Below, piece after piece: positions 2,170 to 7,212 of a stretch of DNA of 64,000 nucleotides. A program made the translations under genes and the position numbers. Location of the stretch: contig SVKQ01000008.1 of the NCBI GenBank assembly GCA_015068325.1, forward strand, positions 1-64,000, read 5' to 3'. The first letter of the stretch is position 1, and every line of letters begins with the position of its first letter. The notes under the pieces are model-generated. The model was given only the letters and a program-made list of their open reading frames with translations. It was not told the DNA's origin and made no database searches. The DNA comes from Oscillospiraceae bacterium. Lineage in GTDB: Bacteria; Bacillota; Clostridia; Oscillospirales; Oscillospiraceae.

Positions 2170-4038
2170 ATGCATGAGTTTTCCGCCGGACAATTTGATA
2201 TCGCCGTGGTCGGTGCGGGTCACGCCGGCATCGAAGCGGCCCTGGCCGCTGCCCGGCTGGGATGCCGGACGGTGTGCTTCACCATCCACCTGGACGCGGT
2301 AGGCAACATGCCCTGCAACCCCGCCATCGGCGGCACCGGCAAGGGTCACCTGGTGCGGGAGCTGGACGCCCTGGGTGGCGAGATGGCCCGCGCCGCTGAC
2401 GCCGCCTGCATCCAGTACCGGATGCTGAACCGGGGCAAGGGGCCGGCCGTATGGTCCCTGCGGGCCCAGGCGGACCGACGCCTCTACCAGCAGGTGATGA
2501 AGCACACGCTGGAGCGGCAGGAAAACCTGACGCTGCGGCAGGCGGAGGTAGTGGATATCCGCACCGCCGGCGGCCGCGTGTCCCAGGTGGTGCTGCGCAC
2601 CGGCGCCGTGTACGACGTGCGCGCCGTGGTCATCGCCACCGGCACGTACCTCCGGGGCCGCACCATCGTGGGGGAGTGCGTGGAGAACTCCGGCCCAGAC
2701 GGGCTGCACCCGTCCCTGGCCCTGGCCGACCGTCTGTTGGCACTGGGGCTGCCGCTGCGCCGTTTCAAGACCGGCACGCCGCCCCGCCTCAACGCCCGCA
2801 CTGTGGACTTCAGCAAAATGGAGCTGCAGCGGGGTGACGAAGACCCTCTTCCCTTCAGCTTTTCCACCGGGAACGCACCGGAGAACCTCGCCGTGTGTTA
2901 CCTGACCTACACCAACGAGGAGACCCACCGCATCATCCGGGAAAATCTGGACCGCAGCCCCCTCTACTCCGGCGTCATCGAGGGGGTAGGGCCCCGGTAC
3001 TGTCCCTCCATTGAGACGAAGATCGTCCGCTTTGCCGACAAGCCCCGGCACCAGCTGTTCATCGAGCCCATGGGGCTCTACACGGAGGAGCTGTATGTGC
3101 AGGGTCTGTCCTCTTCCCTGCCGGAGGACGTGCAGCGACAGATGCTGCGCACCATTCCCGGTCTGGAGCACGCGGAGATGACCCGGCCCGCCTACGCCAT
3201 CGAATACGACTGCATCGACCCGCTGGCACTACGGCCCACGCTGGAGACAAAGCAGGTGGCCGGGCTCTACGGTGCCGGGCAATTCAACGGCTCCTCCGGT
3301 TACGAAGAGGCGGCGGTGCAGGGCTTTGTGGCCGGCGTCAACGCGGCGCTGGCGCTGCAGGGACGGCCGTCGCTGATTCTGAAGCGCAGCGAGAGCTACA
3401 TCGGCACGCTGATCGACGACCTGGTCACCAAGGGTACCGACGAGCCATACCGCATCATGACCAGCCGCTCGGAATACCGGCTGCTGCTGCGGCAGGACAA
3501 CGCCGACCGGCGCCTGACGGCCATCGGCCACCGGATCGGGCTGGTCAGCGATGCACGGCTGCGCTCCGTGGAAGAGAAATATAGGGCCGTGGACCGGGAG
3601 ATTCACCGGTTGGAGCACACCGGCATCGCCGGCAGCGAAGCGCTCAACCGGCTGTTGGCAGAGCGCGGCACGGCACCCGTCACCGACGGCTGCCGCCTGA
3701 TCGACCTGCTGCGGCGGCCCCAGCTGTCTTACGGCGATCTGGCACCCTTTGACCCGGAGCGCCCGACTCTGGACAAAGCCGCGGCAGAGCAGGTGGAGAT
3801 TGCTGTGAAGTACGAGGGCTACATCCGCCGCCAGCTGCGGGACGTGGAGGAATTCGAACGGCTGGAGCGGCACCGGCTGCCACCCGATGCGGATTACCAC
3901 CGCATCCAGGGCCTGCGGCTGGAGGCGCGGGAAAAGCTCTCCGCCATCCGGCCGGACAACCTGGGCCAGGCCGGCCGCATCTCCGGCGTATCACCGGCAG
4001 ACGTGGCCGCGCTGATGATCTGGCTGGAGAAAAGGTGA
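2170..4038 (+). CDS. mnmG: tRNA uridine-5-carboxymethylaminomethyl(34) synthesis enzyme MnmG (GidA)
   Basis: A 622-residue FAD protein, normal length for MnmG. It has the N-terminal dinucleotide-binding motif [12 protein letters not shown] (residues about 13-24), the MnmG signature [20 protein letters not shown], a second motif [18 protein letters not shown], and the C-terminal helical domain used to contact MnmE. With MnmE it adds the carboxymethylaminomethyl (or aminomethyl) group to U34 of tRNAs reading NNR codons. AGGAG lies 9 nt upstream of the start. In many Firmicutes mnmE and mnmG are adjacent; here mnmE is about 44 kb away (48.3 kb) and mnmG follows glpP instead. Confidence 0.97.
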
Positions 4039-4046
4039 CAAGACCA

Positions 4047-4075
4047 TTTTCTTTTTCCAGATGACGTGTTATAAT
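4047..4075 (+). promoter_or_regulatory. promoter of the murT-gatD unit (extended -10)
   Basis: TATAAT at 4070-4075 is preceded by TGT (extended -10, TGN). The -35 at 4047-4052 is a weak TTTTCT at 17 bp. It ends 50 bp before murT and follows the mnmG stop codon. Confidence 0.55.
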
Positions 4076-4124
4076 AGTCGGGTATTTTTTCGCCGCATCT
4101 CCCACAAACAGATACAGAGAAGGA

Positions 4125-5441
4125 ATGATGGCATTGAAATTTATCATCGCCCTGCTGGTGGGCAAGCTGCTGCATCTGATCGGCAAACCGCTGGGCAAGG
4201 CCACCAACCTGCCCGGTGAGGTTGCCCTGAAGCTCTGCCCGGACCTGTTCTCCCACTTCCGCTTCCGCGGCAAGGTGCTGGCCGTGACCGGCTCCAACGG
4301 CAAGACCACCACCGCCAATGCCGTGGCCCACATCCTCAGCCGCAGCGGCCGCTCCGTGGTCAACAACGCCAAAGGGTCCAACCTGACCGGCGGCGTGGCC
4401 ACCACGCTGCTGTGCAGCAGCCGGCTCAGCGGCACGGTACCCCAAGACTTCGTGGTGCTGGAGGTGGATGAGCGCTATTCCCGCCTGATCTTCCGGGGCT
4501 TTGCGCCGGATCTGATGCTGGTAACCAACCTGTTCCGGGATCAGCTGACCCGCAACGGCAACGTGGATGTGATCGTGGCCAAGCTGACGGAGGCCATCGG
4601 GCCCGGTACCAGGCTGGTGCTCAACGCCAACGACCCCATCAGCGCCGACCTCGCGCCGGACAACGAGCGGGTCTACTACGCCATGGCCCGTACCGATGCC
4701 TCCACCGACACCTCCGTCAACATCACCCACGATGCCAAGGTGTGCCCCCGGTGCTTCGGAAAGATGCACTACGACTTCTTCCACTACAACCACATCGGGC
4801 AGTTCACCTGCACCAACTGTGGCTACACCACGCCGGAGGCCGCCTATGTAACCGACAACGTGGACTTCGCCGCCGGCGTTTTCACTTTCAACGGCTGCCG
4901 CACCTCCGGTTTCTTCTACAGCCCGTATCTGCTGATGGATCTCACCGCCGCCATCGCCCTGTGCTGCGAGGCGGGCATTCCCCAGAGCACAGCGCTGGAG
5001 CACGCCGCCACCTTCACCGTGAGCCGGCAGCGCTTCCGGGAGTTCGCCATCGGCCGGCGTAAGGCGGTGCTGATTCTGTCCAAAAACCAGAACCCCGTCT
5101 CCTTCGACCAGTCCATCTCCTATGTACTGGAGCAGGAGGAGCGGAAGAACGTAATCATCTACGTCAACAACATCAACCACACCGACAATAAGGACACCAC
5201 CTGGCTCTATGACATCTCTTTCGAGCGGCTCAACGGCAGGATCGACTCGCTGATCTGCACAGGGCCCCGGGCCTATGACCTGGCGGTGCGGCTGCAGCTG
5301 AGCGGCTTCGACATGGACACAGTGCTGGTGGAGCCGGATCTGGATCAGCTCAAGCCCGTTCTGGAGCGCACCGAGGGCACGCTCTATATCCTGACGGAGC
5401 TCTACGACGCCAACGCCATCGTCAAGGCTGTGACCAAGTGA
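4125..5441 (+). CDS. murT: lipid II isoglutaminyl synthase, Mur-ligase-like subunit MurT
   Basis: A 438-residue protein with the MurT architecture. Residues 56-63 are the Mur-ligase P-loop GSNGKTTT, followed by NNAKGSNLTGG. A Cys4 zinc ribbon (C207, C210, C229, C232; CPRC and CTNC) is inserted in the central domain, and a C-terminal DUF1727 domain contains WLYD (D363), at the place of the aspartate important for catalysis in characterised MurT. MurT with GatD amidates the D-Glu of lipid II to D-isoglutamine, at the cytoplasmic membrane. The GatD-like partner follows after 13 bp. Start chosen at 4125 after AGAAGGA; M2 (4128) is an alternative. All key residues look intact here, unlike in the partner. 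Confidence 0.95.
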   Translation: MMALKFIIALLVGKLLHLIGKPLGKATNLPGEVALKLCPDLFSHFRFRGKVLAVTGSNGKTTTANAVAHILSRSGRSVVNNAKGSNLTGGVATTLLCSSRLSGTVPQDFVVLEVDERYSRLIFRGFAPDLMLVTNLFRDQLTRNGNVDVIVAKLTEAIGPGTRLVLNANDPISADLAPDNERVYYAMARTDASTDTSVNITHDAKVCPRCFGKMHYDFFHYNHIGQFTCTNCGYTTPEAAYVTDNVDFAAGVFTFNGCRTSGFFYSPYLLMDLTAAIALCCEAGIPQSTALEHAATFTVSRQRFREFAIGRRKAVLILSKNQNPVSFDQSISYVLEQEERKNVIIYVNNINHTDNKDTTWLYDISFERLNGRIDSLICTGPRAYDLAVRLQLSGFDMDTVLVEPDLDQLKPVLERTEGTLYILTELYDANAIVKAVTK

Positions 5442-5454
5442 GGAGGGATACGCG

Positions 5455-6168
5455 ATGGAACCTGTGAAGATCCTTTGGCTGTACAGCGACCTGCTGGACC
5501 TGTACGGCGACCGGGGCAACCTCACCGCCGTCACCTGCCGCCTGCGGGGCGCCGGCATCCCCTTTGCAGTGGAGGAAAAGAGCATCTATGACGAACTGAC
5601 ACCCGAGGACTATCAGCTGATCTATGCCGGGCCCGGCAAGGACAGGAACCTGCTGCGGGCTGCGGAGCATCTGGCCGGATACGGTGACGCCCTCCGCCGC
5701 AGCGTGGAGAAAGGCACCGTCTTTCTGGTCACCGGCAACGCCCAGCTGCTGTTCGGTCGGGAGATTCGGGACGCCGACGGCACCAGCTGTCCCGCCGCAG
5801 GGCTCTTTGACTACGTTGGCCGGATCACCGGCGAGGTGTTCATAGACGACGTGGTACTCTGCCCCGTTTTCGATCCGGGCAAAGCCGTCTACGGCTTTAT
5901 CAACCGCACATCACAGCTGATCCCCGGCGAGGACAGCTATCCCCTCTTCCGCGTAGTTTACGCCCAGAAGCCCATCGGCAGCGCCGAGGGCACGCTGTAC
6001 CGCAACTTTATCGGCTCCTGGGCGCTGGGTCCGCTGCTGGCCAAGAACCCCACCCTGCTCTCCTACGTGCTGCGGCAGCTGACGGGCCGGGAGGTCCCCT
6101 TCGACAGCTCGCTGCAGGACACCGCCCTGCTCCGGACACTGGCGGAATTTCCCGCAGTGAACCATTGA
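5455..6168 (+). CDS. gatD: GatD-like glutamine amidotransferase homologue lacking the catalytic Cys and His
   Basis: A 237-residue class I (GATase_3/CobQ-like) amidotransferase in the standard position after murT, with family motifs LYSDLLDLYGDRGN at the N-terminus and IYAGPGKDRN. In characterised GatD the nucleophile sits in a CGGYQ-like elbow; here the equivalent is TGNAQ with Thr93 in place of Cys. The His of the YLHGP-like motif is Leu191 (WALGP). As read, the protein should not hydrolyse glutamine. It may be a structural partner letting MurT use free ammonia, take ammonia from another enzyme, or regulate MurT. The frame is intact and codon use is normal, so it does not look like a decaying gene. 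The alignment is by eye against remembered GatD motifs. Confidence 0.85.
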   Translation: MEPVKILWLYSDLLDLYGDRGNLTAVTCRLRGAGIPFAVEEKSIYDELTPEDYQLIYAGPGKDRNLLRAAEHLAGYGDALRRSVEKGTVFLVTGNAQLLFGREIRDADGTSCPAAGLFDYVGRITGEVFIDDVVLCPVFDPGKAVYGFINRTSQLIPGEDSYPLFRVVYAQKPIGSAEGTLYRNFIGSWALGPLLAKNPTLLSYVLRQLTGREVPFDSSLQDTALLRTLAEFPAVNH

Positions 6169-6198
6169 TCTTGCTTTATACAGGAGGAACATGATCCC

Positions 6199-7212
6199 AT
6201 GCCGTCTATCAAATACATCGCCCGTGTGCTTTCCGGCGTCCGCTTCAAAAAGATGGACCACATGATGGACATCGTCAAGGAGAAGTGCGGGCAGGGGAAG
6301 CTGCATACCTTTTTCGACATGGTCTGGTGCGGCATCCGCTACGGCGCCGGCTACTACGACTACGTGCAGTTCGGTTTCTACAACATGAACGGCAAGCAGC
6401 GGGACACCTACCTGACCCGCGTGCGCAACAAGAAGGTACAGGACATCCTGAACCCCGGCGGGCTGGACTATGACTCCGGCGACAAGCTGCTGGGCAACGA
6501 GATGTTCGCCCCCTATCTGGGCCGCAGGACGCTCAACGGCGAGACCTGCACCCAAGAGGAGTTCGCGGATTTCATCGCCGGGCAGGAGGCCATCTTCGCC
6601 AAGATCAACCACGGTGGATGCGGCGTGGGCGTGGAGAAGCTGTATGTGAAGGACTTCGACTCCCCCGAGGCCATGCTGGCCTACATCCGGGAGAAGAAAG
6701 AGATCGTGTTGGAGCACGTGCTGACCCAACACCCGGACATGGAGCGGCTGCACCCCGGCTCCGTCAACTGCCTGCGCATCACCACCGATCGGGTGGGCGA
6801 CACCGTTCACATCGCCTATATCTCCGTGAAAATGGGACGGGGCGACGGCGTGTGCGACAACTCCGGCCAGGGCGGCGTGCTGTGCCGGGTGGATCCGGAC
6901 ACCGGCAGGATCATGTCCGATGCCACTGACGACTACTTCCACGTCTACGACCGGCACCCGGACACCGGCATCGTCTTCAAGGGCTATCAGCTCCCCATGA
7001 TCCCGGAGGCCATCGCGCTGGTCAGGGAGGCCGCCATGCACTTCCCCGGCGTGAACCACGTGGGCTGGGACATCGCCATCACTCCCAACGGCCCCGCCGT
7101 CATCGAGGGCAATGACTTCCCCGGCACTGACCTGTGCCAGCTGGTGCCCTTCTGCCCCGACAAGACCGGCCTGTGGCCCTACTACAAGGAGATCCTGCAC
7201 CTGAAAAAGTGA
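6199..7212 (+). CDS. ATP-grasp protein of the sugar-transfer-associated (ATPgrasp_ST) type
   Basis: A 337-residue protein resembling the alpha-L-glutamate-ligase-related / sugar-transfer-associated ATP-grasp family: central FAKINHGGCGVGVEKL (nucleotide-binding loop), VLEHVLTQHPDM, NCLRI, and the C-terminal metal/ATP motif AVIEGNDFPG. ATP-grasp enzymes activate a carboxylate as acyl-phosphate and join it to an amine or similar group. Members are frequent beside capsule or wall-polymer genes. It starts 30 bp after gatD, with GGAGG upstream, and is probably co-transcribed with murT-gatD, suggesting a role in envelope precursor modification. The substrate is unknown. No signal peptide or membrane segment is apparent. 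Confidence 0.8.
   Translation: MPSIKYIARVLSGVRFKKMDHMMDIVKEKCGQGKLHTFFDMVWCGIRYGAGYYDYVQFGFYNMNGKQRDTYLTRVRNKKVQDILNPGGLDYDSGDKLLGNEMFAPYLGRRTLNGETCTQEEFADFIAGQEAIFAKINHGGCGVGVEKLYVKDFDSPEAMLAYIREKKEIVLEHVLTQHPDMERLHPGSVNCLRITTDRVGDTVHIAYISVKMGRGDGVCDNSGQGGVLCRVDPDTGRIMSDATDDYFHVYDRHPDTGIVFKGYQLPMIPEAIALVREAAMHFPGVNHVGWDIAITPNGPAVIEGNDFPGTDLCQLVPFCPDKTGLWPYYKEILHLKK

Follow-up and report, generated by a model that had tools for sequence, protein, structure and literature searches.

MurT/GatD pairs of a large, mostly clostridial clade lack the glutamine-hydrolysis residues of GatD

The murT-gatD pair of the window (the whole stretch of 64,000 nucleotides analyzed here, from an Oscillospiraceae bacterium) encodes a GatD that is very likely glutaminase-dead, and the pair belongs to a clade of 84 pairs of the same kind. 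Judged from the sequences, the dead state of GatD is old, under selection and widespread, and the protein has kept its fold and the known contact at its interface with MurT. The function that we favor, at a probability of about 0.5, is that of a glutamine-independent MurT that would be fed by ammonia and would require GatD as a scaffold. MurT would use ATP to activate D-Glu2 of lipid I/II at its alpha-carboxyl and would then add free ammonia, yielding D-isoglutamine. GatD would still be obligatory as a scaffold by which MurT and the ammonia gate are ordered, comparable to human CPS1, which retains a dead glutaminase domain. The original prediction had offered three roles for such a GatD, as a structural partner of MurT, as part of a free-ammonia user or as an acceptor of ammonia from another enzyme, and among these we favor the scaffold combined with free ammonia. 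The genes concerned are the following:

4125 to 5441, forward strand: gene of the MurT ligase partner, with P-loop, Mg and acceptor residues and Cys4 zinc ribbon intact (PF08353, 81.4 bits; PF08245, 41.5 bits).
5455 to 6168, forward strand: gene of the pseudo-GatD, 237 amino acids with a GATase_3 fold and the glutaminase centre lost (intact open reading frame).
6199 to 7212, forward strand: gene of a sugar-transfer-associated ATP-grasp protein (PF14397, by Pfam; an association only).

As had been predicted, gatD lies directly behind an intact murT: the 237-codon open reading frame starts 13 bases after the end of murT at position 5441. Its product is a GatD-like GATase (PF07685, 38.1 bits vs a cut-off of 27), and its closest relatives in the PDB are GatD chains, by sequence as well as by fold. 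It was assigned to GatD by its GATase_3 fold and its pairing with murT, and the partner was assigned to MurT by its P-loop, acceptor Asn, Mg-binding Glu, Cys4 zinc ribbon and MurT_C domain. Both proteins score below the NCBIfam equivalog cut-offs, GatD with 72.5 and 57.9 bits (cut-offs 400 and 450 bits) and MurT with 202.6 and 174.5 bits (cut-off 800 bits in both models).

The glutaminase centre of the window GatD has changed at five positions, all on the forward strand:

5632 to 5634: Pro60 at the position of the oxyanion-hole Gly60 (alignment column).
5734 to 5736: Gly94 (codon GGC) at the position of the nucleophilic Cys, preceded by Thr93 at 5731 to 5733 (ungapped profile alignments).
5737 to 5739: Asn95 at the position of the oxyanion-hole Gly95 (alignment column).
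5836 to 5838: Val128 at the position of the Gln-capturing Arg, Arg128 in S. aureus and Arg142 in the pneumococcus (alignment columns).
6025 to 6027: Leu191 (codon CTG) at the position of the catalytic His (profile alignments).

The original prediction stated that both catalytic residues are replaced, Cys by Thr93 and His by Leu191, in an intact frame. The frame is intact and the codons of both named residues are plain in the DNA (ACC at 5731-5733 and CTG at 6025-6027). Leu191 indeed occupies the His position, but the nucleophile site is Gly94 and not Thr93. A profile of the window type comprising 24 relatives was aligned to all four solved GatD sequences; no gap occurs at the elbow, and G94 pairs with the Cys. 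An hhalign comparison with 16 intact GatDs is ungapped at the elbow, too. The residues pair as T93 with Ile or Val, G94 with Cys, N95 with Gly, A96 with Gly, L98 with Gln and G101 with Gly. A single-sequence phmmer alignment places a gap beside the elbow, which fits the earlier reading. In an AlphaFold model of the window GatD (mean pLDDT 96.0, pTM 0.92), a strand covers residues 89-93 and a helix residues 94-100. Since the strand ends at 93 and the helix begins at 94, the elbow is formed by Gly94. The ungapped alignments together with the model rule out that Thr93 takes over as nucleophile. More generally, it is very improbable that glutaminase activity is restored by a nucleophile at another place of the fold. 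Thr93 is conserved in 76 of the 84 clade members and is chemically possible in this role, but it belongs to the strand and precedes the elbow by one residue, and the protein also lacks the His, Arg128 and the oxyanion glycines.

The losses of Arg128 and of the two glycines go beyond those originally noticed. In S. aureus GatD, each of the mutations C94A, H189A and R128A abolishes glutaminase activity, and the glycines 60 and 95 are assigned to the oxyanion hole (PMC5871853). Due to the loss of Cys, His, Arg128 and both oxyanion glycines, hydrolysis of glutamine by the window GatD is very unlikely.

The replacements are neither a sequencing error, nor a sign of decay, nor an oddity of the window. 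A separate metagenome-assembled genome from red deer (L037) harbors Gly and Leu at the same two GatD sites, at a gatD identity to the window of 65%; it was the one relative retrieved when the genomes were scanned with the single window GatD as query. Between the two loci dN is 0.28 and dS 1.14 for gatD (dN/dS about 0.25), and dN is 0.21 and dS 0.93 for murT (dN/dS about 0.22). Both genes are under purifying selection. These values, the residues of L037 and the MurT clade exclude error and decay. The predicted maintenance of a pseudo-glutaminase by selection is thus upheld at the sequence level, and the neighboring MurT retains an intact ligase core.

The window genome contains a second murT-gatD pair (on contig C19) that also lacks the Cys and the His, so that both of its pairs are dead and none is intact. 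A search for an intact second GatD in this genome, which is 95% complete, revealed none among four GATase_3 matches. These are CobQ (named by NCBIfam), a 455-amino-acid open reading frame that we take to be CobB, and the two dead GatDs. PyrG, GuaA and CobQ, the three other class-I enzymes whose Cys motif could be read (the CobB-like frame and one partial GATase match on C21 were left out of this reading; names by NCBIfam), keep their Cys. This indicates that the loss of glutaminase function is not general in the window genome, and a general switch of the organism to free ammonia was rejected. A compensating class-II enzyme was rejected as well, as no Asn_synthase match in the window genome exceeds the cut-off of 21 bits; two lie just below it, at 20.5 and 20.1 bits.

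For a comparison with related pairs, MurT loci were gathered from the GTDB family of the window (150 genomes), its class (293) and its phylum (398). Loci of class and phylum were fetched non-randomly with a preference for low-scoring MurTs, and their counts should not be read as prevalences. The resulting tree comprises 232 MurTs, of which 216 have a GatD-like neighbor; none was found for the other 16, some of which lie near contig ends. Eighty-four MurTs, including that of the window, form one clade (FastTree support 0.997) that spans 14 family codes plus L037. All 84 GatDs of this clade lack the Cys (83 Gly, 1 Ala) and the His, which is replaced by Leu in 42, Ile in 20, Thr in 18, Ser in 3 and Val in 1. 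Among the 132 GatDs outside the clade, 112 possess both residues and are called intact, so that their 112/112 for Cys and His holds by construction, which is not the case for the MurT columns compared below. The Gln-capturing Arg is present in 112/112 intact GatDs and in 72/84 of the clade. Gly60 occurs in one of the 84 clade members vs 110/112 intact GatDs, and Gly95 in one of the 84 vs 108/112. The other 20 GatDs outside the clade lack the full pair: 17 have another residue in place of the Cys, two have the Cys without the His, and one is partial and unreadable. Parsimony on the MurT tree requires the Cys to have changed at least 11 times and the His at least seven times, a count that does not distinguish loss from regain. 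The window GatD is hence no one-off copy: it belongs to an 84-pair clade, and separate losses occur elsewhere.

Trees of GatD are less uniform. In a FastTree of 155 GatDs, six members of the f52 type, whose genomes look like Eubacteriaceae, fall outside the rest of the clade. A further tree built with IQ-TREE from 64 of these 216 proteins, for which the active-site columns were blanked, recovers 28 core members as one clade (99/97) and likewise places six members of the Eubacteriaceae type apart; monophyly of all 34 clade GatDs in this set is not rejected (p-AU 0.477). A single origin of the main clade is thus supported by MurT, whereas the GatD trees only do not contradict it.

Within the family, 101 loci from 94 genomes were classified, including that of the window, and two partial matches were left out. 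Clade pairs alone were found in 49 genomes, intact pairs alone in 34, and either kind together with a MurT without detected GatD in one and two genomes, respectively. Five genomes have only a MurT without detected GatD, and three show other losses. By motif classification, G098 is one more clade-type genome. In none of the 94 classified genomes does a clade pair occur together with an intact pair, as if one replaces the other; however, only six of the 94 have more than one MurT, which gives this test of exclusivity modest power.

Several losses outside the main clade were recorded individually. In L071, L112, L132, L144, L105, L172, L160, L068-L070, L072, L248, L282 and L283 the nucleophile is replaced by Gly, Ala, Ser or Asp, and the MurT equivalent of S. 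aureus Asp349 is kept. In L264, L274, L277 and L278 no GatD was detected downstream of murT, and their tree neighbors L248 and L283 have Cys-less GatDs; GatD may have been lost outright in these four loci.

The MurT proteins of the clade keep the ligase core: the P-loop Lys, the acceptor Asn, the Mg-binding Glu and the four zinc-binding Cys are present in 84/84. The acceptor Asn, Asn85 of pneumococcal MurT, is essential (PMC6085368). Three further positions, all on the forward strand, characterize the clade or the window type:

4473 to 4475: MurT Arg117 in a clade-specific ExDER motif, mostly Ala or Gly in intact MurTs (alignment column).
4554 to 4556: MurT Asn144 in a loop proposed as ammonia channel, Tyr or Phe in intact MurTs (alignment column).
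5193 to 5195: MurT Asp357, equivalent to Asp349 of S. aureus and kept in the window (alignment column).

Arg117 occurs in 83/84 clade MurTs vs 0/112 MurTs with an intact GatD, and Asn144 in 81/84 vs 1/112; the role of the loop holding position 144 was proposed for the pneumococcal enzyme (PMC6085368). The Asp349 equivalent is present in only 10/84 of the clade but in 112/112 of the intact group. In S. aureus this residue is the putative third member of the triad (PMC6113224), and by our mapping its position would belong to the negative gate described for the pneumococcal complex (PMC6085368). The ND..ADG.D loop is not recognizable in the clade. Because a strict regular expression for this loop misses 38/112 intact MurTs, alignment columns were used, in which the AADG stretch is gapped in 72/84 clade MurTs. 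When the loop was read from its Trp anchor, which was possible in 69/84 clade and 83/112 intact MurTs, an Asp six residues before the Trp was found in 1/69 readable clade members vs 83/83 readable intact ones. No deletion in the loop is claimed, as the anchored reading gives a different loop and not a shorter one.

The MurTs beside the 20 other GatDs are mostly canonical (Asp346 in 19/20, Asp349 in 18/20). The glutaminase-dead pairs therefore fall into two classes, those outside the main clade, in which MurT has changed little, and the main clade with its altered MurT. The window type, represented by the window, L037 and L008, lies inside the main clade and lacks both Arg128 and the Glu98 of the clade. 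It keeps Asp349, both gate Asp residues and the contact between MurT-Trp360 and GatD-Gly21; in the pneumococcus, MurT W360A unbinds GatD (PMC6085368).

It is improbable that ligase activity has been lost and that the pair persists only as a decayed or regulatory relic. The fast divergence of gatD (44.5% identity between the window and G145) and three MurTs of family f88 outside the clade that lack core residues would fit such a relic. Against it stand the dN/dS values of about 0.22-0.25, the ligase core invariant in 84/84 and the spread of the clade over 14 family codes.

The reading of an ammonia-fed MurT with a scaffold GatD is favored by the S. aureus mutant GatD-C94G, which has the very substitution fixed in the window GatD. 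This mutation eliminates glutamine-dependent amidation but leaves NH3-dependent amidation at pH 8.5 unaffected, and GatD-C94G is still required by MurT; at pH 7.5 ammonia was not used (PMC3266927). The mutant was made in the laboratory and has its His and Arg intact, whereas the Gly of the window is natural, fixed and accompanied by other losses. Repeated loss, as implied by the at least 11 changes of the Cys, fits a donor that is available without hydrolysis. The pH of 8.5 needed for ammonia use in S. aureus counts against ammonia as donor, as do the new residues near acceptor and channel in the MurTs of the main clade. If the nitrogen source alone had changed, MurT would be expected to remain canonical, which holds mostly for the 20 other pairs but not for the main clade.

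The main rival to D-isoglutamine as the product of the pair is a D-Glu2 whose alpha-carboxyl carries an amino acid. In the main clade, MurT might attach an amino acid and not ammonia at this site, which would resemble type-B or glycine-substituted peptidoglycan, and GatD would then act as a binding or gating subunit. We consider this possible but less probable than the use of ammonia. The alterations of MurT along the ammonia path (loss of Asp349 in 74/84, Tyr/Phe144 to Asn in 81/84, Ala/Gly117 to Arg in 83/84) and the unrecognizable loop point in this direction. The same is true for the Gln-capturing Arg in 72/84 clade GatDs, which may still bind an amino acid, though not in the window type. 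Acetyl-CoA synthase is encoded in all four of the clade-bearing f52 genomes tested (G227, G403, G374 and G324), which are acetogen-like; a fifth f52 genome, G433, lacks it and has an intact GatD at the locus read. The murein of Acetobacterium woodii is of type B. A review table gives type B2alpha beside A types for Eubacterium; for Oscillospiraceae, it lists meso-DAP for Faecalibacterium only and has no entry for Oscillibacter (PMC11382707). On the other side, G433 has a second MurT_C match beyond its intact-GatD locus, the f52-type GatDs stand apart from the clade of the window in the GatD trees (although joining is not rejected), and the window type has both gate Asp residues but neither the Arg nor the Glu98 that the clade has. 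We know of no MurT-type ligase that adds an amino acid to D-Glu2. That the main clade as such is a ligase placing an amino acid on this carboxyl, as the first step towards type-B or glycine-substituted peptidoglycan and with GatD for binding or gating, is about as probable as this amino-acid reading in general.

Another protein with glutaminase activity could also take over from the dead site and pass ammonia on to the pair. Behind murT and a dead gatD in L207 (genome G224) lies a gene of the asparagine-synthase type that includes a glutaminase domain of its own, but this is a single case among 20 neighbor proteins put through Pfam, beside which others may exist, and the window genome has no Asn_synthase match over the cut-off. 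Such a supply is quite unlikely for the pair. As a functional clue, the gene neighborhood is mixed. A PF14397 gene or a relative of it lies at most two genes from the pair in 5/46 long clade loci (the window, L126, L179, L204 and L206), in varied orientation and too rarely to be interpreted.

Compared with the lipid II isoglutaminyl synthases MurT/GatD of S. aureus, S. pneumoniae and S. pyogenes, the window pair lacks the Cys, the His, Arg128 and the oxyanion glycines, possesses clade-specific MurT residues and scores far under the equivalog cut-offs. Human CPS1 retains a class-I glutaminase domain although it is dead, and its synthase uses free ammonia. CPS1 structures are among the fold matches of the window GatD, at an identity of 13-14% that is not close; their glutaminase domain is fused and belongs to another pathway, whereas the window GatD is encoded by a separate gene. 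Archaeal MurT-like proteins are relatives of MurT without a glutaminase partner, reported from pseudomurein archaea that have no GatD at all (PMC11915815). The active site of GatD was called broadly conserved in 2012 (PMC3266927), and the accessible text of Morlot et al. describes murTgatD as widespread in Clostridiales without mention of Cys-less forms. In the open-access literature searched, which leaves most subscription papers outside its scope, no description of a natural glutaminase-dead (Cys-less) GatD was found.

Amidation of D-Glu2 shapes cross-linking and innate sensing. This large clade, whose members belong almost entirely to the class of the window, keeps the pair but has lost the residues needed to hydrolyze glutamine. 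In many genomes, homology-based annotation may therefore predict a wrong nitrogen donor and perhaps a wrong product. The clade represents a natural experiment on the roles of GatD besides hydrolysis, and its MurT/GatD is a candidate type-B peptidoglycan ligase. In several Gram-positive bacteria MurT/GatD is essential, and it has been proposed as a drug target (PMC6085368).

Two further observations concern individual loci. In L157, L158 and L159, which belong to family f88 of another class, the ligase-core residues of MurT are lost and GatD has Gly for Cys but keeps the His; these are possibly a further repurposed or inactive pair. In the congeneric genome G125 (L126), the genes flanking the pair are close to those of the window region 2170-7212 (mnmG 81% and the ATP-grasp gene 72% identical), whereas MurT is only 35% identical and the pair is of another clade type. 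The two loci thus apparently differ by an in-place swap of one dead pair for another.
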